This document shows positions 18,223-38,018 of a stretch of DNA of 42,831 nt, piece after piece; within the stretch, counting starts at the first letter, position 1; each line of letters begins with the position of its first letter. The stretch covers positions 1 to 42,831 of the forward strand of contig CAKMJS010000107.1 of the NCBI GenBank assembly GCA_927405585.1, in the 5' to 3' direction. This DNA comes from an uncultured Desulfosporosinus sp. (lineage in GTDB: Bacteria > Bacillota > Desulfitobacteriia > Desulfitobacteriales > Desulfitobacteriaceae). The notes beneath the pieces are model-generated. The model saw only the letters and a program-made list of their open reading frames with translations. It was not told the DNA's origin and did no database searches. The position numbers and the translations under genes were made by a program.

Positions 18223-18297
18223 GCCGATGTGGCTCAGAGGTAGAGCAGCTCACTCGTAATGAGCAGGTCGTCGGTTCGATTCCGACCATCGGCTCCA
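18223..18297 (+). tRNA. tRNA-Thr(CGU)
   Basis: 75 bases with an encoded CCA. The acceptor stem is GCCGATG/CATCGGC, the D stem GCTC/GAGC, the anticodon stem GCTCA/TGAGC with loop CTCGTAA (anticodon CGT, reading ACG) and the T stem GTCGG/CCGAC with TTCGATT. All stems pair fully. Its 3' end is repeated at 38099-38114. Confidence 0.97.
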
Positions 18298-21993: not shown

Positions 21994-23841
21994 ATGAGGC
22001 CAAAATTATGTCTCCTTGCTCCCAATGAAGATATTGCTAAGGTCGCGAATGACGTTGTCCTGGAAAATAAGTTTAATTGTGATGTCGTGACAGGGAACTT
22101 GAAAAACCAAGGGGTTGAACTTGCAAAAAACGCGCTGAAAGCTGACACTGAAGCGATTATCAGTCGAGGTGGGACATTTTTAAGGATTAGTGAGGAAATT
22201 ACTCAGATTCCCTGCGTTCAAATTAATGTCTCGACAATTGACTTATTGGAGGCCTTGCATACTGCGTCCCATTTCAGCAACAAAATTGGCGTTGTTGGTT
22301 ATCCCAATACGATTTATCAAGCAGCTACCGCTGGCAAGTTTCTCGGTTTGGATATCACCGAAATCCCTATTGAAGATCCGACTGTTTTTCCGGGTCGACT
22401 GATTGAGGAAATTGGTAAGGGCTTAGAAATAATCGTAGGAGATACAATATCCACTGATTTGGCCACGAGTCTGGGGGTCCAAGGCATATTGATTTCCTCT
22501 GGCAAGAGAGCAATTTACGAGGCCTTGTCCCAAGCTGAAGACTTAGCTATCCTACATCGAAAGGAAGCCATATCTCAGCAAAGGCTCTATATGATTTTAA
22601 ACAATTTATCCGAGGGGATTTTAGCTACGGATAGAGAACATAAGGTGACCCATAGCAATCCTGCGGCAGAAAAGTACCTTGGATTGTCTGCCCAGGAGAT
22701 GTTAGGGCAAAATATTGAAGCAATTCTTCCAGGAAAACATCGCAATGACGAGTTGATTACTATTTTAGAGCAACAATACATTTTAAATCTTGAACGCATG
22801 GAGAATTATGGCGACAATTACGGCGAAGTTTTCACCTTCAAACCTATTAAAGAGATTCAAGACATTGAAACAAAACTTAGAAAGAAACTGCACAATCGGG
22901 GCTTGGTGACGAAGTTTTCTTTTGAACATATGGTTGGAAAAAGTCAAGCCTTGTCGGCGAGTATTCAAAAAGCTAGGCGAATCAGCAAGTCAATGGCAAC
23001 TGTTCTGATCACTGGGCAAACTGGAGTTGGCAAGGAAATGTTTGCGCAGAGCATTCATAACGAAAGCCCACGTGCTCATGGACCTTTCGTCGCAGTCAAT
23101 TGTGCAGCCTTTCCGGAATCCATTTTAGAGAGTGAATTATTCGGTTATGTGGAAGGGAGTTTTACGAATGCGCGCAAAGGTGGGAAAATAGGCTTATTTG
23201 AATTAGCCCATAGGGGTACTATTTTTCTCGACGAAATCGGTGATATGAGTCTATCTGTACAGGCCAAGGTTTTACGAGTTATTCAAGAAAAAGAAGTCGT
23301 TCGCCTAGGTGATGACGGCGTTATTCCAGTTAATATACGAGTCATAGCGGCCACAAATATTGATTTGTGGGAAGCCGTTAACGATGGGCGTTTCCGACAA
23401 GATTTATACTATCGGATTAATGTATTACGATTAGAAATTCCGCCTTTATGTGAAAGGGACCAAGATGTAATTCTTATGGCGCAGGAGTTTTTAAGACAGT
23501 TAGCTCCGAATATCGTAGTCCGAGAAGGGGCATTTACCCCTTTGTTAGAACATAATTGGCCGGGAAATGTCCGGGAATTGTATAATTTTATAGAGCAATT
23601 GGCCGTTTTGCATGAAGAGGAATCCTTGGATGGATCCGCCATTCGTAAATCTCTAGCTTCGAGCACGAAGACCAAGGAGGTTTATGCTCTAGAAAAGCTG
23701 GGCAGTTTTTCTAGAAGGCTCGCAGATGCAGAGATTTTGGAGGTATTAGAACAGTGTCACGGCAATCAAACTGCTGCTTGTGAGATTTTAGGAATTAATC
23801 GTTCTACGCTCTGGCGACGCTTAAAACGAATAGAAAAATAA
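21994..23841 (+). CDS. Sigma-54-dependent transcriptional activator, PrpR type
   Basis: 615 residues. Residues 8-185 form a PrpR_N ligand-sensor domain (as in propionate activators), about 195-255 a PAS domain (LSEGILATDREHKVTHSNPAAEKYLG), about 310-545 the AAA+ domain and 580-611 a Fis-type helix-turn-helix (GNQTAACEILGINRSTLWRRL). Walker A is GQTGVGKE (341-348) and Walker B TIFLDEIG (409-416). The sigma-54 contact loop, usually GAFTGA, reads GSFTNA (388-393). ATG at 21994 has AGGTAGGTG upstream. It probably senses an organic acid and activates the two sigma-54 promoters at 23970 and 28637, which share an upstream element. Confidence 0.92.
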   Translation: MRPKLCLLAPNEDIAKVANDVVLENKFNCDVVTGNLKNQGVELAKNALKADTEAIISRGGTFLRISEEITQIPCVQINVSTIDLLEALHTASHFSNKIGVVGYPNTIYQAATAGKFLGLDITEIPIEDPTVFPGRLIEEIGKGLEIIVGDTISTDLATSLGVQGILISSGKRAIYEALSQAEDLAILHRKEAISQQRLYMILNNLSEGILATDREHKVTHSNPAAEKYLGLSAQEMLGQNIEAILPGKHRNDELITILEQQYILNLERMENYGDNYGEVFTFKPIKEIQDIETKLRKKLHNRGLVTKFSFEHMVGKSQALSASIQKARRISKSMATVLITGQTGVGKEMFAQSIHNESPRAHGPFVAVNCAAFPESILESELFGYVEGSFTNARKGGKIGLFELAHRGTIFLDEIGDMSLSVQAKVLRVIQEKEVVRLGDDGVIPVNIRVIAATNIDLWEAVNDGRFRQDLYYRINVLRLEIPPLCERDQDVILMAQEFLRQLAPNIVVREGAFTPLLEHNWPGNVRELYNFIEQLAVLHEEESLDGSAIRKSLASSTKTKEVYALEKLGSFSRRLADAEILEVLEQCHGNQTAACEILGINRSTLWRRLKRIEK

Positions 23842-23870: not shown

Positions 23871-23897
23871 GTTGCATATGGTGTTGCAATTGTTGCG
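23871..23897 (+). promoter_or_regulatory. Upstream activator site of the tctC promoter
   Basis: Three GTTGC direct repeats start at 23871, 23883 and 23892. The 15-mer GTTGCAATTGTTGCG (23883-23897) is identical to 28528-28542, the only other sigma-54 promoter region in the window. It lies 88 bases (start to GG) above the promoter. Confidence 0.75.
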
Positions 23898-23929
23898 TTT
23901 TTATGATTATACATCTAGCAAAGTCCCAT

Positions 23930-23963
23930 AAACCCCTTGGAATATGAGGGGTTTTATTATTTT
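23930..23963 (+). terminator. Terminator of the activator gene
   Basis: AAACCCCT (23930-23937) / AGGGGTTT (23947-23954), then a T-rich run. It sits between the activator site and the sigma-54 promoter, so read-through from the regulator gene is separated from tctC. Confidence 0.8.
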
Positions 23964-23969
23964 GACTTA

Positions 23970-23985
23970 TGGCATACTTCTTGCA
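23970..23985 (+). promoter_or_regulatory. Sigma-54 promoter for tctCBA-larA-like operon
   Basis: TGGCATACTTCTTGCA, with GG at 23971-23972 and GC at 23983-23984, the exact 12-base spacing of a -24/-12 promoter. The leader to the tctC start is about 145 bases. Confidence 0.85.
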
Positions 23986-24035
23986 AACTAAGTATATTGA
24001 ATTCTCTTATATTTTTGATAATGGCTTAGGGAACG

Positions 24036-24087
24036 GAGGTTTTATGTAGGAGAGATTGCCATGATATGGCTAACCTCAAGGGTGTAA
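24036..24087 (+). other. tctC leader: hairpin and two tiny upstream reading frames
   Basis: GGAGG (24035-24039) precedes ATG-TAG (24044-24049), a start followed at once by stop. AGGAG (24048-24052) precedes an eight-residue frame MIWLTSRV (24061-24087). GAGGTT (24036-24041) pairs with AACCTC (24072-24077), and GCCAT pairs with ATGGC inside, so the first ribosome site would be hidden in a stem. Translation is not proven. Confidence 0.4.
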
Positions 24088-24141
24088 GGAAAAGGAAATC
24101 CCAGAAGACCGAAAACCAATAATGAGGAGGAAGTGTGAAAG

Positions 24142-25167
24142 ATGATTGAGAATGTGTTTTGGAAAAAAGCTATCATGTCTGGAATAGCAGTGTCGCTGAT
24201 GCTGTCACTGACCGCTTGTGGAACGACAAGCCAACCTACAGCTACCCCAAGTGCTCCGAAAGTGTCTGACTATCCTAACAAGCCCATCGCAGTTTTGCAA
24301 GGCTTTAAGGCAGGGGGTGGCAGTGACCAACTCGCCCAGGTGACCCAGCCCTATTTACAGAAAATACTTGGCAAGACTTTGGTTAACCAGTATATCCCAG
24401 GAGCAACCGGTGCCATCGCTTGGACACAATTAGCCAAACAAACGGAGCCAGATGGCTACACGATCAGCATTACAAACACTCCTATGCTGATGACCAACTA
24501 TTTGATGAACGCCGAAATTAAATACTCCATTGACGAACTTACTCCGATTGCCAACGTCGTAACCGACCCCGGAATCCTCGTGGTTTCTAAGGACAGCCCA
24601 TTTAAGACGTATCAGGATTTTGAGGCTTATGTTAAAGCCAACCCAGGGAAACTGACGATTGGAAATTCTGGAACAGGTGGAGATGACTTTTTCTCGATTT
24701 TACAATGGGAAAAAGCAACGGGCTTAAGTGTTAAAATGATTCCATTCGAAGGGGACGGCCCATCTTGGCAAGCTGCTGCTGGCAATAAAGTCCAAGCCAG
24801 TTCCACTAACCTAGGAGTTGTTTATAGTCAAGTAAAAGGCGGAAATTTAAGAGCTTTGGCGCTTTATTCGGAGAAGAGAAATGAACTCTTACCAGATGTA
24901 CCTACGCTAAAAGAGTTAGGTTTTAACATGGTCGCTGGATCTTCTCGTGGCTACAGTGCCCCTAAAGGAATTCCTGACGATGTAAAGAAGAAATTAACTG
25001 ATGCTTTTGTGGAAATGGCTAAGGATCCTGCATTTATAAAAGGATTACAAGATTCCGCATTACCTATCGATATTAAAATCGGCGATGACTATGGTAAATA
25101 TCTTAAAGAACAGGAAGCTGTTTTTAAAGGTATCTGGGATTCTGTGAAAGATTCAATTAAAAAGTAA
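24142..25167 (+). CDS. tctC: Tripartite tricarboxylate transporter substrate-binding lipoprotein
   Basis: 341-residue TctC/BUG-family binding protein. The signal peptide ends in the lipobox LTAC (Cys26), so it is anchored outside the membrane, and a Thr/Pro linker follows. VSDYPNKPIAVLQGFKAGGGSDQLAQ and IPGATGAIAWTQLA are the family's ligand-loop blocks, and EPDGYTI and GNSGTGGDDFF are also typical. It delivers a carboxylate to TctAB. ATG at 24142 has GAGGAGG 18-12 bases upstream. It is the first gene after the sigma-54 promoter. The ligand cannot be read from sequence; neighbours suggest a hydroxylated dicarboxylate. Confidence 0.92.
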   Translation: MIENVFWKKAIMSGIAVSLMLSLTACGTTSQPTATPSAPKVSDYPNKPIAVLQGFKAGGGSDQLAQVTQPYLQKILGKTLVNQYIPGATGAIAWTQLAKQTEPDGYTISITNTPMLMTNYLMNAEIKYSIDELTPIANVVTDPGILVVSKDSPFKTYQDFEAYVKANPGKLTIGNSGTGGDDFFSILQWEKATGLSVKMIPFEGDGPSWQAAAGNKVQASSTNLGVVYSQVKGGNLRALALYSEKRNELLPDVPTLKELGFNMVAGSSRGYSAPKGIPDDVKKKLTDAFVEMAKDPAFIKGLQDSALPIDIKIGDDYGKYLKEQEAVFKGIWDSVKDSIKK

Positions 25168-25246
25168 GTAAATAAGTAAATCTCTTTGATATTAAAAGGA
25201 GAGGCAAATCCCCTCTCCTTTTTTGAATGGTGAAACGGAGGTCATT

Positions 25247-25693
25247 ATGAACAATTTGGCAAAGCATGGACTCGCTTCTGCACTGACCTTAACCCTTGCA
25301 ATCGTATTCTATGTTAATTCCTTAAAGTTGCCCGATGCTGCTGCTAGCCTACCACGGATTTTAGCTGTTATCATTATTTTGTTGAGTTTTGCAATGTTTG
25401 GCGAGGCTTGGTATAACGAACGAAAGAACCGCAAAGTGCAGCAGGAGTCCAACGAACCCATTCACGGGTTTCGGGTGTTTGTTTTTGCTGCCTTGATTGC
25501 ACTGTATGTCATTTTGATCAAACCTCTGGGTTATTTTGTTGTGACTCCGTTGTTTCTCATCGTGGCATTGTCCTATCTTAAAGCCACTCAGCTTTGGAAA
25601 TCGGTCTTGATTGCGCTCGGTTTCACGTTCTTTTGCTATATGCTCTTTGTATGGTTCCTTAGCCTACCAATTCCGATGGGCCTATTCTCTTAA
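25247..25693 (+). CDS. tctB: Tripartite tricarboxylate transporter small membrane subunit
   Basis: 148-residue TctB (DUF1468) protein with four hydrophobic segments at about 8-26, 32-52, 77-98 and 108-143, the normal layout. ATG at 25247 is chosen because GGAGG lies at 25236-25240; the frame extends eight codons further upstream from a TTG without a ribosome site. It lies between tctC and tctA in the standard order and forms the membrane complex with TctA. Confidence 0.88.
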   Translation: MNNLAKHGLASALTLTLAIVFYVNSLKLPDAAASLPRILAVIIILLSFAMFGEAWYNERKNRKVQQESNEPIHGFRVFVFAALIALYVILIKPLGYFVVTPLFLIVALSYLKATQLWKSVLIALGFTFFCYMLFVWFLSLPIPMGLFS

Positions 25694-25706
25694 AGGGGTG
25701 ACACTA

Positions 25707-27203
25707 ATGGACAGTATTATGCTTGGACTTTTAAATGTATTATCGCCCTTCAATTTGTTGGTGATTGCCGCGGGGACAGGCATTGGCATATTTGTGGGAG
25801 CCATGCCTGGACTTTCTGCAACCATGGCCATTGCACTGCTTCTTCCTGTTACCTTTGGTATGGATCCGGCTGCTGGAATAAGCATGTTAGCCAGTCTTTA
25901 CATGGGAGCAATGTACGGAGGGTCGATTTCTGCCATTCTTCTTAGAACACCTGGAACTCCGGCGGCGGCCGCAACTGTCTTGGATGGATACCCAATGGCC
26001 CAACAAGGACGAGCGGGAAAGGCCTTAGGGGTATCTTTGACAGCCTCCCTTATTGGTGGGGTTATTAGTAGTATCGCACTCTTAACCGTTGCTCCCGTGC
26101 TCGGTAAGGCAGCGCTTTCGTTTGGCCCAGTCGAATTGTTTGCGATTGCAGTATTAGGCATCACGATTATTGGTTCCTTATCTTCAGGTTCTCCTATTAA
26201 GGGAATTCTTTCTGGAGTTGTCGGCTTATTGATTGCCATGATTGGGATGGATCCCATCTCAGGTACGCCACGCTTCACCTTCGGAACCATGTATTTATTT
26301 AATGGTATATCCTTTATTGTTGCTTTGATTGGTCTCTTCTCCATTCCCCAGGCGCTTCGTCTTGTCGAGAAAGATGATGGTGTTCAAAAAGCCCTCAGTT
26401 CTTTTAAGGATAAGATGTTGCCAACCTTCAAAGAACTAAAATCCATGATTGTAACCATATTGCGCTCTAGTGTTATTGGTGTCTTCACGGGATTAATACC
26501 AGGAACGGGTGGAGATACAGCGTGTTGGTTCGGCTATAATGAAGCCAAACGCTTCTCGAAAGAAAAGGAAAAGTTTGGGACAGGACACCCGGAAGGAGTC
26601 GCGGCAGCCGAGGCGGCTAATAATGCAGTTGTCGGCGGAGCTTTGATTCCGACGATTACCTTAGGAATCCCAGGCAGTTCCGCGACGGCGATTCTCTTAG
26701 GTGGCTTAATGGTTCACGGTATCATGCCAGGACCAACTCTTATGACGGATCATGCATTGATTACGTATACCTTAATCTGGGCGGTGTTGCTTTCTAACGT
26801 TTTTATGTTCGCTGAAGGCCTCTTATTGACTCGAGCTGCCGTAACGGTAACCAAGGTACCTAATAAGGTTCTAGCCCCGATCATAGTAATCTTATGTGTT
26901 ATTGGGTCCTTTACTATCAGTAACAGCATTGTCGACGTGTTTGTCATGTTTAGCTTTGGAATTTTAGGATACTTCATGGATAAGCTTAGTATTCCCACTC
27001 CCCCTATGGTTGTGGGTATGATTTTGGGCATGATGCTGGATATCAGCATGAATCAGTCTCTACTTATTAGTGATGGAAGTTGGATGATTTTCATTACAAC
27101 CCCTCTTCCTGCAATTCTGCTCTTCATTGCTTTGATTTCCGTTTTGCAAGCCACGCCAATCTTTAGGATTATCAAACAAAGGCTGAAGAAAATCGCTAGG
27201 TAA
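25707..27203 (+). CDS. tctA: Tripartite tricarboxylate transporter large membrane subunit
   Basis: 498-residue polytopic TctA permease with about 12 membrane segments. GAMPGLSATMAIALLLP and the later IPGTGGDTACWFGYNEAKR are the two repeated Gly/Pro-rich signatures of the family, and ITLGIPGSSATAILLGGLMVHGIMPGP is also characteristic. ATG at 25707 has AAAGGGG (25692-25698) upstream; the 32 codons before it overlap tctB. It performs the cation-coupled uptake step with TctB and TctC. Confidence 0.92.
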   Translation: MDSIMLGLLNVLSPFNLLVIAAGTGIGIFVGAMPGLSATMAIALLLPVTFGMDPAAGISMLASLYMGAMYGGSISAILLRTPGTPAAAATVLDGYPMAQQGRAGKALGVSLTASLIGGVISSIALLTVAPVLGKAALSFGPVELFAIAVLGITIIGSLSSGSPIKGILSGVVGLLIAMIGMDPISGTPRFTFGTMYLFNGISFIVALIGLFSIPQALRLVEKDDGVQKALSSFKDKMLPTFKELKSMIVTILRSSVIGVFTGLIPGTGGDTACWFGYNEAKRFSKEKEKFGTGHPEGVAAAEAANNAVVGGALIPTITLGIPGSSATAILLGGLMVHGIMPGPTLMTDHALITYTLIWAVLLSNVFMFAEGLLLTRAAVTVTKVPNKVLAPIIVILCVIGSFTISNSIVDVFVMFSFGILGYFMDKLSIPTPPMVVGMILGMMLDISMNQSLLISDGSWMIFITTPLPAILLFIALISVLQATPIFRIIKQRLKKIAR

Positions 27204-27220
27204 AAAGAGGAGAATACAAA

Positions 27221-28489
27221 ATGAGTGCCATTGATCAACTATTAGATTCTATACCCATTCCAAGAATGGTGAGAGTTAAACAAGTTTTTGAACGACCGGT
27301 AATCGAGAATGTAGAGCGGGTACTACTCGCTAGACTTGAAAGTAAGAATACAAGCCCCTTGATTAAGCCAGGACAATCTGTGGCTGTAGCAGTCGGTAGC
27401 CGTGGCATCACGGCGTTGCCGAATATGGTTAAAACCATGATCCAGTTTATTAAAGGACAGGGTGGCCTACCGTTTATTGTTCCTGCCATGGGAAGCCACG
27501 GCGGGGCGTCTGCAGAAGGGCAACAAAAGATGCTTCACGGATTTGGTATCACGGAAGAGTCGGTCGGTGCACCGATTCGAGCGACGATGGAAACGGTGCA
27601 AATCGGAGTTTCAGAAAATGGACTTCCGGTATTTGTCGACAAATATGCTTATGAAGCAGATGCCATTGTCATTATCAACCGTATCAAACCGCATATTGCG
27701 TTTCGAGGCAAGTATGAGAGTGGTTTAATGAAAATGATCACCATCGGTCTAGGGAAACAAAAAGGGGCCGATATTTGTCACGAGTTAGGCTTTGGTAAAA
27801 TGGCGGAAAACATTCCGGCCATTGCCCGTGTAATTTTAGAAAAGACAAACCTCATCTTTGCCGTTGGTGTGCTGGAAAATGCTTATCATGAACTGTGTGG
27901 TATTGAAGTTCTAAAAAATGAAGAAATTGAAGTCGGAGAACCAGCCTTACTAGAGGAAGCCAAACGCTTGTGCCCTAAGATTTATTTCGATGCTTTGGAC
28001 GTATTGATCATTGATGAGATCGGTAAAAACATTAGTGGCACGGGATTTGATAACAATGTGGTCGGTCGCTACCATACCCCATATTGCAGTGGGGGGCCTA
28101 TTATTTCTAAAATTGTTACTCTAGACATAACAGATGTCTCCCACGGAAATGGCAATGGTTTAGGAATCCTTGATTTTACAACGAAACGGGCGTTTGACAA
28201 GTTCAGCTTTGAGCAATCTTACCCTAACTCCCTTACTTCTACGGTACCGCTTAGTGTGAAAATTCCTATGGTGTTAAAAAATGATAAACAAGGCATTCAA
28301 GCAGCTATCAAGACCTGTAATATCTTGGATAAAACGAAGGTTAGAATGGTGAGAGTTAAAAACACCTTGCGTCTCGGAGAAATTGAAGTCTCGGAAAATC
28401 TTATTGAAGAAGTCAGGCGTAATTCCAATATGGAAATTGTGAGCTCTGCCTATGACCTGGAATTTAGCGAGCAGGGGAATCTCTTTTAA
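27221..28489 (+). CDS. LarA-family (lactate racemase-like) protein
   Basis: 422-residue DUF2088/LarA homologue. Members use a nickel pincer nucleotide to racemise or epimerise 2-hydroxyacids. The N-terminal Lar_N part (about 1-200) has VAVAVGSRGITALPN, PAMGSHGGAS and INRIKPHIAFRGKYESGLMKM, whose His and Lys residues are candidates for metal and cofactor binding; the C-terminal part ends EIVSSAYDLEF. ATG at 27221, AGAGGAG upstream, 17 bases after tctA, so it is co-transcribed with the transporter. Cofactor genes larB, larC and larE are not in the window. Inverting the C2 centre of the imported acid is the inferred job. Confidence 0.8.
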   Translation: MSAIDQLLDSIPIPRMVRVKQVFERPVIENVERVLLARLESKNTSPLIKPGQSVAVAVGSRGITALPNMVKTMIQFIKGQGGLPFIVPAMGSHGGASAEGQQKMLHGFGITEESVGAPIRATMETVQIGVSENGLPVFVDKYAYEADAIVIINRIKPHIAFRGKYESGLMKMITIGLGKQKGADICHELGFGKMAENIPAIARVILEKTNLIFAVGVLENAYHELCGIEVLKNEEIEVGEPALLEEAKRLCPKIYFDALDVLIIDEIGKNISGTGFDNNVVGRYHTPYCSGGPIISKIVTLDITDVSHGNGNGLGILDFTTKRAFDKFSFEQSYPNSLTSTVPLSVKIPMVLKNDKQGIQAAIKTCNILDKTKVRMVRVKNTLRLGEIEVSENLIEEVRRNSNMEIVSSAYDLEFSEQGNLF

Positions 28490-28518
28490 TAATTCGGTAG
28501 AGTTGTTGTGAGTTGGAC

Positions 28519-28542
28519 GTTGCAAGTGTTGCAATTGTTGCG
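28519..28542 (+). promoter_or_regulatory. Upstream activator site of the dehydratase promoter
   Basis: GTTGC direct repeats start at 28519, 28528 and 28537 (nine-base spacing). GTTGCAATTGTTGCG (28528-28542) is identical to 23883-23897. It lies 110 bases above the -24 GG, which is 22 bases (two turns) more than in the tctC case. Confidence 0.75.
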
Positions 28543-28573
28543 TGAAAAAATGACTTAAACAACCGTAGTAGAA

Positions 28574-28611
28574 TATAAACCCAGTAACACGCCATAACAC
28601 ACAGGTTTATA
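28574..28611. other. Inverted repeat between activator site and promoter
   Basis: TATAAACC (28574-28581) and GGTTTATA (28604-28611) around a 22-base loop. It could help end the larA-like transcript or bend the DNA between activator and promoter. Confidence 0.3.
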
Positions 28612-28636
28612 AGTCGAGACGAGGAAAAATATGATT

Positions 28637-28652
28637 TGGCACATCTTTTGCA
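28637..28652 (+). promoter_or_regulatory. Sigma-54 promoter for the dehydratase operon
   Basis: TGGCACATCTTTTGCA, with GG at 28638-28639 and GC at 28650-28651. A near-perfect match to the -24/-12 consensus. Confidence 0.9.
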
Positions 28653-28731
28653 ATAAGTAGTGAAGCAAGCGCTCGATGAATAAACGAAACAGAAAAACAG
28701 CTGAATCAGGTTGGATAGGGGGAAATGCACG

Positions 28732-30402
28732 TTGAAGAAGATGTTGCGTGGCTCACAAGAGTTATTTGAGGGCATTAAAGGGGCGTATCCCAGGGCCATG
28801 TTGAAATCGGTAGGGTACACGAAGGAAGACCTAAGAAAACCGATTATCGGAGTCGTAAGTGCTTGGTCTGAAATGCACCCAGGGAGCTACAGCAATAAGG
28901 AGTTGGCTCAATTTGTTAAAGCTGGGGTTTGGGCAGCAGGGGGAACCCCGGTAGAATTCCATACCATAGCAGTCTGTGATGCGGTCGCTCAAGGTTTAGG
29001 GATGCATTATTCTTTACCCAGCAGAGAACTTGTCGCAGCTGAAATTGAATTAATGGTGGGATCCGGGGGGTTTGACGGTCTGGTTTTAATACCGTCTTGC
29101 GATAAGTCCCCAGTTGGGATGCTCATGGCGGCCGCTAGGCTCGACATTCCAACCATCTTTTTACCGCCTGGCCCTATGCTTTCCCATTTCGACGGGAATG
29201 GGGAGCAGCGGGTCATGTCGGATATAAAGGAAGCCATGGGGGCAATAAAAAAGCAACTGATTACAGAGGAACAGTTTGAAGCGGTTGAGAGCGATACCTG
29301 CACAACGGTTGGAGTCTGTGGCATGATGGGTACAGGAAATACCATGGGCTGCCTCATTGAAGCGTTAGGAATGAGTTTGCCTGAGACTGCAACGACTCCA
29401 ACTGTTTACGCAGAAAAGCGTCGTCAGGCTAAAAAAACTGGAGAACGTATCATAGAAATGGTTCGTGAGAATCTGAGGCCGAGGCAAATCTTGACTCCTG
29501 CAAATCTTGACAATGCCGTTCGCTTTCTTATGGCCATTGGAGGCTCAACCAATGCTATCCTGCACTTGCCGGCACTCGCCCGAGAAGCAGGTTTTGAATT
29601 AAGCCTGGATCGCATTGATGAACTATCGGGTGCAACACCCTGTGTAGCGAAATTTAAACCCTCCAGTAAGTTTACTCTGTGGGATTTTTTCCAAGCAGGG
29701 GGTGTGGGTGCCATACTTGGGATTCTAGAGCCACTTATTGATAATAATGTCCTTACAGTGACTGGGAATACTATTGCCGCCTATAGTCAGGAAGTAAGAA
29801 ATTCGGAGGCCATTCGTCCCTTAAGTAATCCGTTTCACCCGCAAGGTGGAGTTGTAATCCTTAAGGGAAATCTCTCACCCGATGGTGCCGTGATCAAGGT
29901 GAGCGGGATCAAGAATGCCCCGACACGCCAGGTGGGTACCGCCAAGACCTTCGATTCAGAAGAAGATGTGATGGACCACATTATGACTAAAGAAATCAAA
30001 CCCGGGGACGTATTAGTCATCCGGTATGAAGGCCCCGCAGGAGGACCGGGAATGAGGGAATTATCGATTCCGGCAGCCCTGATAACGGGCATGGGCCTTG
30101 GTGATAGTGTAGCCATGATTACAGATGGCCGTTTTTCCGGTGCCACAAAAGGTTTCTGCATAGGTCATGTAACGCCTGAAGCCCACGTGGGAGGACCGAT
30201 CGCCATCGTCCAAGACGGCGATTCGATCGAAATCGATATTGAACACAAACTCTTAAATCTGCTGATTAGCCCTGAAGAGATGGCGGAACGCTTAGAAAAA
30301 CTACCGCCTCGGAAGCCTCCTGTTGATACCGGATTTCTAGGGTTATACTGTCGTAATGTTGGGCAAGCGAATCACGGAGCCTTGTTAGAAAAAAAAGATT
30401 AA
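28732..30402 (+). CDS. IlvD/Edd-family dehydratase
   Basis: 556-residue iron-sulfur dehydratase related to dihydroxy-acid, gluconate and pentonate dehydratases. [39 protein letters not shown] and [20 protein letters not shown] carry the expected cluster Cys residues, and [20 protein letters not shown] is the C-terminal signature. The segment usually PGHIHL reads PGSYSN, and KIVPGM reads KSPVGM, so it is probably not the house-keeping IlvD. TTG at 28732 is chosen because AGGGGG lies about nine bases upstream; an ATG at 28741 is possible. It is first in a sigma-54 operon with the UxaA-type lyase, so a sugar acid or hydroxydicarboxylate is likely. Confidence 0.88.
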
Positions 30403-30423: not shown

Positions 30424-30705
30424 ATGCATACTGCTTTACGCATGGATCCTCGTGACAACGTGGCTGTTGTACTGAGAGAGGTTAGAAAGGGTGAAGACGT
30501 TCTCATAAATTTGGAAACTGGCGTTGTTCATTTAACGGCCCAAAGTGATATCCCTTTTGGACATAAAATTTCCGTAACCAACCTTCTGGTAAGCGAGCCT
30601 ATTATCAAATACGGTGAAGAGATTGGAAATGCAAAAATACCGATCCAACCTGGGGAGTGGGTTCATCTACAAAATATTTATTGCGAACGGGGCCGAGAAA
30701 ACTAG
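30424..30705 (+). CDS. UxaA-type lyase, SAF-domain small subunit
   Basis: 93-residue SAF domain matching the N-terminal part of altronate/galactarate dehydratases and the SuyA subunit of sulfolactate sulfo-lyase. MDPRDNVAVVLREVRKGEDV and FGHKISVTNLLVSEPIIKYGEEIG are typical of the UxaA N-terminal domain. It starts 22 bases after the dehydratase and ends 38 bases before the large subunit, which it probably joins as a complex. Confidence 0.88.
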   Translation: MHTALRMDPRDNVAVVLREVRKGEDVLINLETGVVHLTAQSDIPFGHKISVTNLLVSEPIIKYGEEIGNAKIPIQPGEWVHLQNIYCERGREN

Positions 30706-30742
30706 AACGGCCAAAACTTCCGGGGAGAGGAATAAAAGAAAC

Positions 30743-31915
30743 ATGCATACATTTTATGGATATAAGCGTCAGCTAGGGTTACCGGGGGTTAGAAATTGGG
30801 TTGCTGTTATACCCTCCGTTTTTTGTGCCAATACAGTTGTGAAGCGGATTGTCCAACAGGTGGAAGGAACGGTTGAACTCACCCATCCGGTCGGATGTAG
30901 TCAAGTCGGGTTAGATTTAGAACTCACAGCGAAAGCATTAAAGGGAATTGCCAGGCACCCGAACTTCTTCGGAGTTGTAGTAGTCGGTCTTGGGTGTGAA
31001 CGGTTTCGGGCACAAGAATTAGCTGACAGTATTGCCGCTACTGGTAAACCTGTCGAATTGATTATGATACAAGAAGAAGGTGATACTCAATTAGCAATCT
31101 CTAAAGGAGTCCGTTTGGCACAAGAGTTAGTAGAACAAGCGGCCAAACAGCAAAAAGAGGAATTTCCGTTATCGGAACTATGTTTAGGTCTTAAATGTGG
31201 TGGAACGGATGCAACATCGGGAATCGCCGCTAATCCAGCCCTCGGATGGGTCACAGACCAAATTGTAGCCGAAGGCGGCAGTGCCATGTTGACCGAGGTC
31301 ACAGAACTGATTGGGGCTGAGCATGTTCTGGCCAGACGGGCCGTAACACCTGAGGTGGGACAAAAAATCCTAGACACTGTCCGGAAGATGGAAAATAAAT
31401 TAAAAATCGGAACGGCCCATGGTGATCTCCAAAATCGCTCGGCATTGATCTCGCCTGGCAATGAGGATGGGGGAGTAACGACAGTAGTAGAGAAAGCACT
31501 CGGTGGAATTCACAAAGGGGGAACCGGACCCATAACTGGAGTACTTGATTATGGAGAGCCTCTCGTGAAGCACGGCCTATATGTCCTAGACTGCCCTGGT
31601 CATGACGGAGAAGCAGTGACGGGACTAGCGGCCTCCGGTTGCCAAGTCGTCGTTTTCACCACTGGAAGAGGAACCCCCACTGGTTTTCCGGGTGTACCTG
31701 TGATTAAAATCACAGGAAACACTTCAACCTTTGAGCGAATGAAATTTAACCTTGATTTTAACGCAGGGGAGATTATTGATAAAGGCTTAAGCATCGCTGA
31801 AGTTGGGGAAGGACTCTTGCAGACGGTCCTCGAAACTGCCTCAGGTGTGCCTACCAAAGCAGAAATCGGCCTTCATGATGAGCTGTTTTGTATTACCAGA
31901 AGTTACGGTGGTTAA
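30743..31915 (+). CDS. UxaA-family lyase, large subunit
   Basis: 390-residue C-terminal catalytic part of a UxaA/GarD/SuyB-type hydro-lyase. HPVGCSQVGLDLELT, VVVGLGCERFRAQELA, LCLGLKCGGTDATSGIAANPALG and FTTGRGTPTGFPGVPVIKITGN are conserved blocks, with Cys residues suited to an Fe or Fe-S site. In altronate dehydratase the two parts are fused; here they are separate genes, as in suyAB. ATG at 30743 has GAGAGG 13 bases upstream; the longer frame from 30614 overlaps the small subunit. It may dehydrate a sugar diacid or remove sulfite from sulfolactate. The context does not settle which. Confidence 0.88.
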   Translation: MHTFYGYKRQLGLPGVRNWVAVIPSVFCANTVVKRIVQQVEGTVELTHPVGCSQVGLDLELTAKALKGIARHPNFFGVVVVGLGCERFRAQELADSIAATGKPVELIMIQEEGDTQLAISKGVRLAQELVEQAAKQQKEEFPLSELCLGLKCGGTDATSGIAANPALGWVTDQIVAEGGSAMLTEVTELIGAEHVLARRAVTPEVGQKILDTVRKMENKLKIGTAHGDLQNRSALISPGNEDGGVTTVVEKALGGIHKGGTGPITGVLDYGEPLVKHGLYVLDCPGHDGEAVTGLAASGCQVVVFTTGRGTPTGFPGVPVIKITGNTSTFERMKFNLDFNAGEIIDKGLSIAEVGEGLLQTVLETASGVPTKAEIGLHDELFCITRSYGG

Positions 31916-32024: not shown

Positions 32025-32924
32025 ATGTCGTTCGAACTAAAAGGAGTATATGCTCCTATTCCAACACCGTTTGTCGACGGCAAAATTGCCTTCGATAAAT
32101 TGGAGAGCAATTTAGACAATTGGCTTGGCTCAAAGCTTGAAGGCTTGGTCGTATTGGGTTCTAACGGTGAGTTTGTATTATTGAGTTCTGAAGAAAAAAT
32201 TCAGCTTATTACGTTTGTTTGTCAAAAAGCCAAGGGACGTAAACCTGTCATTGCTGGAACGGGTGCAGAGTCCACTGCAGAAACTATTTACTTAAGCCAC
32301 CAAGCTGCCGCCGCCGGGGTTGACGCAGTGTTAGTGGTAACCCCCCATTATTATAAAGGTTCTATGTCAGACAAGGCACTGAAACAATTCTATCTTGATG
32401 TCGCCGAGTCTAGTCCTGTTCCTGTTATCTTGTACAATATGCCGGGTAACACAGGGATTAATTTATCCTACAAGCTTGTCGCCGAATTAGCTCAACATCC
32501 TAACATTATGGGCATTAAGGATAGCGGGGGAAATATCGTCCAGATCGCGGAGGTAATTCGTAACACCTCTTCTGATTTTGCCGTGTTTGCTGGTTCTGCC
32601 AGTTTTCTCTATACCAGTTTGGCTTTAGGTGCTAAAGGCGGAACCTTAGCCCTCGCCAATGTATTCCCTAATGAGTGTGCTGAGGTTCAGGAACTATTTG
32701 AGGCAGGCAAATGGGAGGAATCTAAAGCATTGCAACTTAGACTCTTGGAGAGCAATGCTGCGGTAACTGCTCGTTTTGGGATTGCGGGTCTTAAAGCCGC
32801 TTTGGATATGCTTGGTTATTATGGAGGAGATCCCCGTCTACCCCTCCTGCCTCTAGGCGATGTAGAAAGAGCTGAGCTTAGAGTAATACTAACTCGTACA
32901 CAATTCGTTACTAACCTTTCTTAA
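32025..32924 (+). CDS. DapA/NanA-family aldolase, 4-hydroxy-2-oxoglutarate aldolase-like
   Basis: 299-residue class I aldolase. Schiff-base Lys165 is in GIKDSGGN and catalytic Tyr137 in YNMPGNTG. VLGSNGEFVLLSSEEK, AGTGAESTAETI, VVTPHYYKGSMSDKAL and SNAAVTARFGIAGLK with GYYGG near the end resemble the mammalian HOGA1 type (recalled from memory) more than DapA, whose GTTGE loop is GSNGE here. HOGA enzymes split 4-hydroxy-2-oxoglutarate to pyruvate and glyoxylate. ATG at 32025 has GGGAGG upstream. It lies 109 bases after the lyase with a terminator behind it. 2-keto-3-deoxy-sugar-acid aldolase remains possible. Confidence 0.87.
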   Translation: MSFELKGVYAPIPTPFVDGKIAFDKLESNLDNWLGSKLEGLVVLGSNGEFVLLSSEEKIQLITFVCQKAKGRKPVIAGTGAESTAETIYLSHQAAAAGVDAVLVVTPHYYKGSMSDKALKQFYLDVAESSPVPVILYNMPGNTGINLSYKLVAELAQHPNIMGIKDSGGNIVQIAEVIRNTSSDFAVFAGSASFLYTSLALGAKGGTLALANVFPNECAEVQELFEAGKWEESKALQLRLLESNAAVTARFGIAGLKAALDMLGYYGGDPRLPLLPLGDVERAELRVILTRTQFVTNLS

Positions 32925-32953: not shown

Positions 32954-32982
32954 GAGCTGCTTAACAGGCAGCTCCTTTTTTC
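32954..32982 (+). terminator. Terminator after aldolase gene
   Basis: GAGCTGC (32954-32960) / GCAGCTC (32968-32974), seven-base loop, then a T run. Confidence 0.88.
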
Positions 32983-36449: not shown

Positions 36450-36494
36450 TATATTAGTTAAAATAAATAATTAAATTTGAAAGAGGTAATTAAT

Positions 36495-38018
36495 ATGAGG
36501 AAAAATACAAAAACAAAATCAATCGTTATAGCTACAGCTCTAGTAACACTTTTATCGGGCACAACTGTATTAGCAAATACGAATAGCAGTAATGCAGAAC
36601 AAGCACAAAAGTGTTATCAAAATCAAACATACGAAACTCAGAGTTGGTTTAAAAGCCATTTAGATAGTCTTGTAAGTTCAGGCACACTTACGCTGGATCA
36701 AGTAGACACTATTCAAAGTGCGGTACCAAAAATCGGCTCAGATAAAGGTCAATTCAATAGAGGACATCATTACGGGCAATACCAAACACTTCTGAAAGAT
36801 CTAGTAAAAGCCGGAACGATTACTCAGGCCCAAGCAGATGCTATTCAAGGATTAATTAAACCAGGTAAAGAAGCCCCTGCACAAGTGGACGTTAAAACCG
36901 TTCTGGACGGTCTAGTAAAAGCCGGTACAATTACCCAGGCGCAAGCAGATGCTATTCAAATTGGAATTAAGCCAGCAGTAGAAGCAGTAGAAGCCGTGGA
37001 AGCAGTAGAAGCCGTTGAGGCAGTAGAAGCTATCGAAGCAGTAGAAGCTGTCGAAGCAGTAGAGGCTGTTGAGGCAGTAGAAGCAGTCGAAGCAGTCGAA
37101 GCAGTAGAGGCTGTCGAAGCTGTTGAAGCAGTAGAAGCAGTAGAAGCCGTTGAAGCAGTAGAAGCAGTAGAAGCCGTTGAGGCAGTAGAAGCCGTTGAGG
37201 CAGTAGAAGCCGTTGAGGCAGTAGAAGCCGTTGAAGCAGTAGAAGCCGTCGAAGCCGTCGAAGCAGTTGAGGCAGTCGAAGCTGTTGAGGCAGTAGAAGC
37301 TATCGAAGCCACACCAACTACGCCAGCAGTAGAAGCAGTAGAAGCCGTTGAGGCAGTAGAAGCCGTTGAAGCAGTAGAAGCTGTTGAAGCAGTCGAAGCT
37401 GTCGAAGCAGTAGAAGCCGTTGAAGCAGTAGAAGCCGTTGAAGCAGTAGAAGCCGTTGAGGCAGTAGAAGCAGTAGAAGCCGTAGAAGCAGTAGAAGCCG
37501 TAGAAGCAGTAGAAGCTGTAGAAGCAGTAGAAGCCGTAGAAGCCGTAGAAGCAGTAGAAGCAGTAGAAGCTGTCGAAGCTGTAGAAGCTATCGAAGCTGT
37601 AGAGGCAGTTGAAGCTATGCCAGCTGTAGATATTAAAACCGTTCTGAATGACCTAGTAAAAGCCGGTACAATTACTGAAGCTCAAAAAGACGCCATTAGA
37701 AGTGCGCTTAATCCAGCTAAAGAAGGTACCCCAGTAGTAACCCCGACTACGCCAGTCGAAGAAGCTACACCAGTAGTAACCCCGACTACGCCAGTCGAAG
37801 AAGCTACACCAGTAGTAACCCCGACTACGCCAGTCGAAGAAGCTACACCAGTAGAAACCCCGACTACGCCAGTCGAAGAAGCTACACCAGTAGTAACCCC
37901 GACTACGCCAGTTGAAGAAGCCGTCCAAGCAAGAGGTTTTTTTAACACCATTCTTGATGGACTAGTAAGAGTCGGTGTGATTACCCAAGCTCAACTAGAT
38001 GGCTTTCGAGGCATTTAA
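36495..38018 (+). CDS. Secreted repeat protein with (V/I)EA tract
   Basis: 507-residue probable cell-surface or secreted protein. A signal peptide (MRKNTKTKSIVIATALVTLL, cleavage near VLANTNS) is followed by three copies of a ~25-residue helical module (LLKDLVKAGTITQAQADAIQ). Then come 37 and 32 (V/I)EA triplets split by TPTTPA, a fourth module, five 13-residue ATPVVTPTTPVEE repeats, and a fifth module at the very end. ATG at 36495 has AGAGG eight bases before; six further codons upstream lack a site. No sorting signal or membrane anchor is visible. I do not recognise a family; the modules resemble short helix-turn-helix segments found in clostridial spore or surface proteins. Confidence 0.85.
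   Translation: MRKNTKTKSIVIATALVTLLSGTTVLANTNSSNAEQAQKCYQNQTYETQSWFKSHLDSLVSSGTLTLDQVDTIQSAVPKIGSDKGQFNRGHHYGQYQTLLKDLVKAGTITQAQADAIQGLIKPGKEAPAQVDVKTVLDGLVKAGTITQAQADAIQIGIKPAVEAVEAVEAVEAVEAVEAIEAVEAVEAVEAVEAVEAVEAVEAVEAVEAVEAVEAVEAVEAVEAVEAVEAVEAVEAVEAVEAVEAVEAVEAVEAVEAVEAVEAVEAVEAIEATPTTPAVEAVEAVEAVEAVEAVEAVEAVEAVEAVEAVEAVEAVEAVEAVEAVEAVEAVEAVEAVEAVEAVEAVEAVEAVEAVEAVEAVEAVEAIEAVEAVEAMPAVDIKTVLNDLVKAGTITEAQKDAIRSALNPAKEGTPVVTPTTPVEEATPVVTPTTPVEEATPVVTPTTPVEEATPVETPTTPVEEATPVVTPTTPVEEAVQARGFFNTILDGLVRVGVITQAQLDGFRGI
36978..37310 (+). repeat. First (V/I)EA tract, 37 triplets
   Basis: 333 bases of GTN-GAR-GCN triplets with mixed third positions (GTA, GTT, GTC, GTG; GAA, GAG; GCA, GCC, GCT), so the peptide is conserved better than the DNA. 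Confidence 0.95.
37329..37616 (+). repeat. Second (V/I)EA tract, 32 triplets
   Basis: 288 bases, the same triplet, separated from the first tract by 18 bases encoding TPTTPA. Confidence 0.95.
37725..37919 (+). repeat. Five 39-base tandem repeats
   Basis: Each unit encodes ATPVVTPTTPVEE. The first starts with Gly, and the fourth has Glu for one Val. The units are nearly identical at DNA level, so copy number is likely to vary by slippage. Confidence 0.93.

Follow-up and report, generated by a model that had tools for sequence, protein, structure and literature searches.

A putative two-promoter sigma-54 regulon of an adjacent PrpR-like activator in an uncultured Desulfosporosinus

In the genome of an uncultured Desulfosporosinus, which we take to be a soil sulfate reducer, the gene of an enhancer-binding-type activator is followed by two operons, each of them headed by a -24/-12 promoter with a GTTGC-rich stretch upstream; the question is whether these stretches are the operators by which the activator would control both operons, or whether they belong to another regulator or to none. 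The analysis covered the window (the whole stretch of 42,831 nucleotides of contig CAKMJS010000107.1), the whole genome of 4.48 Mb and 30 genomes of the genus. Judged by sequence conservation and gene context, the assignment of both promoters to one sigma-54 regulon under the adjacent PrpR-like activator is well supported.

The activator gene and the two sigma-54 promoters

The putative regulatory components of the window are the following:

21994-23841, + strand: activator, 615 aa, PrpR_N-PAS-sigma-54 AAA+-Fis-type HTH (Pfam PF06506, PF00989, PF00158, PF02954)
23872-23898, + strand: putative activator array 1, TTGC at 23872, 23884 and 23893
23930-23954, + strand: intrinsic terminator of the activator gene, between array 1 and promoter 1
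23970-23985, + strand: predicted sigma-54 promoter 1 (-24/-12), TGGCATACTTCTTGCA, strict pattern match
28519-28543, + strand: putative activator array 2, TTGC at 28520, 28529 and 28538, 9-bp period
28637-28652, + strand: predicted sigma-54 promoter 2 (-24/-12), TGGCACATCTTTTGCA, strict pattern match

The activator matched PF06506, PF00158 and PF02954 above the cut-off, which characterizes it as a PrpR-type enhancer-binding protein. With the equivalog model of PrpR (TIGR02329) it scored 381 bits, i.e. below the cut-off of 499.2, and there were no prp genes among the neighbour genes examined; for these reasons the protein is termed PrpR-like and not PrpR. It shares 43% identity with E. coli PrpR in the AAA+/HTH region and 32% in a section of the N-terminal domain; literature text searches yielded no published description of this activator group.

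The GG-N10-GC spacing that a sequence-only reading of this stretch had reported for both promoters is exact, and promoters 1 and 2 are the only sites of the strict pattern TGGCAYN5TTGCW in the window (shuffle mean 0.09). The whole genome contains 78 such sites versus 4 with the reversed pattern, so that about 5% of the strict-class sites are expected to occur by chance; it also encodes rpoN (at C49; TIGR02395, 435.5 bits versus a cut-off of 277.35). By the GG/GC spacing and the presence of rpoN, both promoters are predicted to be sigma-54 dependent. Inspection showed a CCCCTT...AAGGGG/GAGGGG hairpin in the corresponding position of each of the four orthologous clusters, and the terminator of the activator gene is located between the element and promoter 1 in five of five clusters; in this position it should insulate operon 1 from read-through.

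Architecture of the upstream element

The two promoters had been proposed to share a 15-base element. The sharing was confirmed, but the common word comprises 18 bp (GTGTTGCAATTGTTGCGT, at 23881-23898 and 28526-28543; GTTGCAATTGTTGCG starts at 23883 and 28528), and the element consists of an array of TTGC half-sites, not of a unique 15-mer. Each promoter does have the reported run of three GTTGC repeats, with steps of 12 and 9 bp at site 1 and of 9 and 9 bp at site 2; in the respective shuffles, triples of this kind appeared in 0.04% and 0%. The common word might be ascribed to chance, to a dispersed repeat or to a functionless local duplication, and with its two copies less than 5 kb apart an origin by duplication is possible; hardly any credence is given to this explanation, as the longest common word in 5000 dinucleotide-preserving shuffle pairs did not exceed 14 bp, the 14-bp core GTTGCAATTGTTGC has exactly two exact copies in the 4.48-Mb genome (both being arrays 1 and 2) and hence is not a dispersed repeat, and the element has been retained in species whose regulators are 71-82% identical, whereas the bases around it have diverged. 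Shuffles likewise never attained the motif count among the related promoters.

This count refers to 13 cognate promoters, two each in five orthologous clusters (window, L021, L022, L063, L064), which are not independent samples, and one each in three paralogous clusters. TTGC-N5-TTGC was present 60-118 bp upstream of all 13, within a TTGC array, and was the sole top word in an unbiased enumeration of gapped 4-mer pairs (13/13; shuffle maximum 5). Across these promoters the array is made up of three to six TTGC, most of them in one orientation relative to the promoter (tetramer tally: 32 TTGC-only, 9 GCAA-only, 22 palindromic TTGCAA). The steps are 12,9 at promoter 1 (three genomes), 9,9 at promoter 2 (three genomes) and 9,11-12,11,11 in the paralogous clusters, the arrays of which begin at -117 or -118.

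Direct TTGC repeats were found in 13 of 13 promoters; in ten of them the 9-bp pair also reads as a GCAA-N3-TTGC dyad, which is missing from the other three. Because of this double reading, dyad and direct-repeat binding are inseparable by sequence alone. A simple dyad as common denominator was discarded: promoter 1 of SRJS8 and of D. lacus is devoid of any GCAA. The conserved core of the putative operator is TTGC-N5-TTGC (often a GCAA-N3-TTGC inverted repeat) accompanied by at least one further TTGC at a distance of about one helical turn.

The distances of the common word to promoters 1 and 2 had been said to differ by 22 bases and thus to keep the face of the helix. The arithmetic is correct (87 versus 109), but the kept face follows only weakly from it, since there are several repeats, 9-12 bp apart, in every array and the promoter-to-promoter offset in the orthologues is 13 or 22, 4, or -2 to +20 bp. 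A Rayleigh analysis of helical phase, in which related sites were treated as independent, gave R values of 0.62 at 10.5 bp and 0.70 at 11 bp (naive p of about 1e-3 and 2e-4, respectively, for sites that are kin by descent); on account of this shared descent and of the several repeats per array, the result is not counted as proof. A more elaborate model is considered rather improbable: the enhancer of this clade would be a head-to-tail phased TTGC array (9-bp core pair plus 11-12 bp steps) and not a set of separate dyads, activator subunits would be aligned on one side of the DNA, and two paralogous activators with identical recognition helices would read the arrays by a spacing code.

Occurrence of the element, its regulators and known counterparts

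The scan of related genomes suggested in the sequence-only reading was carried out for the composite of element and promoter in 30 Desulfosporosinus genomes. The regulator occurs in five of the 30 (68-100% identity over the N-terminal 292 aa), and these five contain the composite at the same two promoters. The importer operon and the dehydratase operon had been regarded as tied to each other; the presence of element and promoter at both in 5/5 genomes with the regulator argues for this connection. The promoter-2 region varies in two of the genomes, where a second ilvD-like gene (G007, L063:7974-9644; G003, L064:10893-12590), about 42% identical to the main ilvD, separates the isomerase gene from promoter 2; that this promoter and its array nevertheless remain with the main ilvD counts in favour of the proposed regulon. 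Close to the cluster, at L021:3474 (-), L022:3471 (-), L063:17074 (-) and L064:2623 (+), there is a third strict sigma-54 site that has no TTGC array; it fronts a chemoreceptor gene (L021), an ORF of similar size (L022) and a TauE-type exporter gene (L064); it has no strict counterpart in the window.

Genus-wide, the composite gave 17 matches versus 6 with the reversed pattern, all located at these clusters except for one in G022 and one in G025, both of which were rejected. The G022 match fronts another operon, located behind an activator whose helix differs: in this region (L123:9271-9382) the sigma-54 promoter is preceded by a CATGTAGC...GCTACATG inverted repeat, which is probably the likelier operator of that activator. 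The G025 match is situated inside a coding sequence, apparently among phage genes. The remaining 76 strict sigma-54 sites of this genome lack both TTGC-N5-TTGC and a TTGC triple within the 200 bp that precede them (0/76). One-mismatch copies of the core (C37, C114, C129) were dropped as they lack a sigma-54-like site in the 190 bp downstream; the copy at C95, with a sigma-54-like site downstream, was kept. The element has the distribution of a conserved site that tracks its regulator across genomes, as would be expected of the upstream activating sequence (UAS) of a Fis-type EBP.

The recognition helix LGINRSTLWRRL[KQ] is common to all eight regulators with an array; the nearest array-less regulators carry LGIDRSTLYRRL, LGIDRTTLWRRL and others. 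Within this one clade, helix and site correlate as they should if the half-site were read by the helix. That the repeats are operators for an unrelated regulator, e.g. a repressor, appears very unlikely: PrpR of Xanthomonas citri does repress via a similar element (PMC12153269), but the presence of the array tracks the regulator clade in eight of eight cases, the 25 genus genomes devoid of the regulator showed only the two unrelated matches, and the position of the array is an ordinary one for an enhancer of sigma-54 promoters.

The array was thought to be the probable target of the linked activator. This is sustained by its association with the regulator in the relatives; a private target is less certain owing to a paralogue at C95 of the same genome (about 57% identity), the recognition helix of which is identical. 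GTTGCAAATGTTGC is located there at C95:22512, 119 bp upstream of TGGCATGGTACTTGCG and ahead of the paralogue's own tctCBA; G065 and G069 likewise have a paralogous regulator in front of another tctCBA and GD_AH cluster (about 56-57% full-length identity for the paralogous set). As helix and element are the same at C95, two activators may make use of the sites. Both would then recognize GTTGC arrays, the three promoters would form one overlapping network, and specificity would come from the ligand-sensing domains and not from the DNA. We regard this as a tangible possibility, short of probable, that overlaps with the preferred explanation and differs only in who else binds. The identity of about 57%, the identical helix and the own GTTGCAAATGTTGC copy before tctCBA within one genome speak for it; on the other hand, the array steps differ (9,11,11,11 at C95; 12,9 and 9,9 in the window) and could separate the two activators, G065 and G069 possess the paralogue type alone, and the other four orthologous Desulfosporosinus genomes the window type alone.

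The C95 cluster (G000, L113:6153-12929) comprises activator, tctCBA, SAF-like and GD_AH dehydratase genes and a GTTGC array; an aconitase-family gene and a GGDEF gene are located ahead of it.

Among more distant PrpR_N activators, the TTGC-N5-TTGC array is mostly absent. Between stop codon and promoter of these loci, 23 GTTGC/GCAAC words were counted versus a shuffle mean of 6.1 and a maximum of 13 (9/16 loci); in view of this enrichment, GTTGC appears to serve as half-site in a wider family.

A close parallel to the proposed arrangement is the PrpR-regulated prpBCDE promoter of enteric bacteria, examined in E. coli K-12, which shares an activator of the same family (PrpR), a -24/-12 promoter and an upstream array of half-sites 10-12 bp apart: GAAAC repeats, which we infer to be PrpR sites, are located at -114, -104, -92 and -80 of the prpB promoter. 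It differs in the half-site (GTTTC versus GTTGC here), in the helix (LGISRTTFWRRL versus LGINRSTLWRRL here), in its target, propionate catabolism, and in the divergent gene layout. In Salmonella, prp requires prpR, ntrA and ihf, according to the title of a reference in PMC3844500. Support for the half-site from outside the genus comes from PrpR of X. citri, which binds GTTGCAA-N2-TTGCAAC in gel shifts, where both halves are needed and changes of the spacer are tolerated (PMC12153269); this half-site is nearly the same as GTTGC here, but the operator is a dyad and no array, it mediates repression instead of activation, and the paper is silent on sigma-54 membership. As far as the available part of Nie et al. 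2019 (PMC6615313) goes, the sigma-54 regulons of Clostridiales resemble the present one in that the EBP gene adjoins its target operons, the regulons are small, and there are multiple UAS sites per promoter, with the consensus TTGGCATN5TTGCT. The UAS motif most often described there, a TGT-N10-12-ACA dyad, has a typical distance of 100-250 bp, whereas the clade of the window has mainly direct TTGC repeats at a shorter distance (60-118 bp), and both differences count against the proposed reading; Table 1 therein lists no group with tct importer, nickel-pincer isomerase and ilvD.

Gene content of the operons and proposed control

Operon 1 consists of tctC, tctB, tctA and a nickel-pincer isomerase gene; operon 2 of ilvD, the genes of a SAF and a GD_AH subunit, and the gene of a DHDPS-family lyase:

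24142-25167, + strand: tctC, substrate-binding protein of a tripartite tricarboxylate transporter (PF03401)
25223-25693, + strand: tctB (PF07331)
25611-27203, + strand: tctA (PF01970); mechanical ORF, true start probably about 25700; orthologues 495-504 aa
27221-28489, + strand: nickel-pincer-nucleotide isomerase, NCBIfam group 22 (NF052515, 538.8 bits, cut-off 400)
28711-30402, + strand: ilvD/edd-family dehydratase (PF00920, PF24877); mechanical ORF, true start probably about 28741; 552-aa orthologues
30424-30705, + strand: small SAF-domain subunit of a galactarate/altronate-type dehydratase, 93 aa (PF08666 borderline)
30614-31915, + strand: large subunit of a galactarate/altronate-type (GD_AH) dehydratase (PF20629, PF04295); mechanical ORF, true start later
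32025-32924, + strand: DHDPS/KDG-aldolase family lyase, last gene of operon 2 (PF00701)
32954-32974: strong terminator, end of operon 2

The gene of the SAF subunit is partly hidden beneath the longer mechanical ORF downstream; its product reached 20.7 of the 21 bits set for PF08666 and matched the N-terminus of TIGR03248 at 1e-10. Together, the SAF and GD_AH genes probably encode a two-subunit galactarate/altronate-type dehydratase. All specific sugar-acid dehydratase models remained below their own cut-offs, and the score with the general model of dihydroxy-acid dehydratases narrowly exceeded the threshold. Operon 1 probably serves the import and operon 2 the breakdown of a sugar-acid-like compound; going by the gene families, the substrate may be an aldonate, an aldarate or a related hydroxy acid. 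A sulfolactate pathway was also considered, prompted by the TauE-type gene near the G003 cluster and the SAF/GD_AH dehydratase.

Elsewhere in the window, a tRNA gene (18223-18294), the only match of an Rfam search, is located between a NiFe hydrogenase small-subunit gene and a FAH-family gene. A 513-aa protein (36477-38018) with repetitive low-complexity stretches matched DUF2680 and, weakly, Plasmodium HRP and LED-repeat models. A lysis-like cassette of two N-acetylmuramoyl-L-alanine amidases and a phage-type holin is located near the end of the contig (39259-42262).

Very probably, the linked PrpR-like activator binds both arrays and drives operons 1 and 2 via sigma-54. From the observed sequences, their conservation and clade specificity, and the gene content, we infer the following course of binding and activation, including ligand and substrate: the activator (21994-23841) would bind the GTTGC half-site arrays approximately 77-117 bp upstream of both -24/-12 elements; its PrpR_N/PAS sensor region would detect an intracellular signal, probably the imported acid or its product; and its AAA+ domain would remodel the sigma-54 polymerase waiting at both promoters, with the result that operon 1 (tctCBA importer, nickel-pincer isomerase) and operon 2 (dehydratases, aldolase) would be co-induced.

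The locus provides a candidate operator and a defined regulon for a group of PrpR-like activators. The pairs of half-site and helix (GTTGC-INRSTL here, GTTTC-ISRTTF in E. coli) may serve as a data point for reading the Fis-type helices of this family, and the predicted tie of a tripartite importer and a nickel-pincer isomerase to a dehydratase/aldolase pathway would narrow the search for the substrate.
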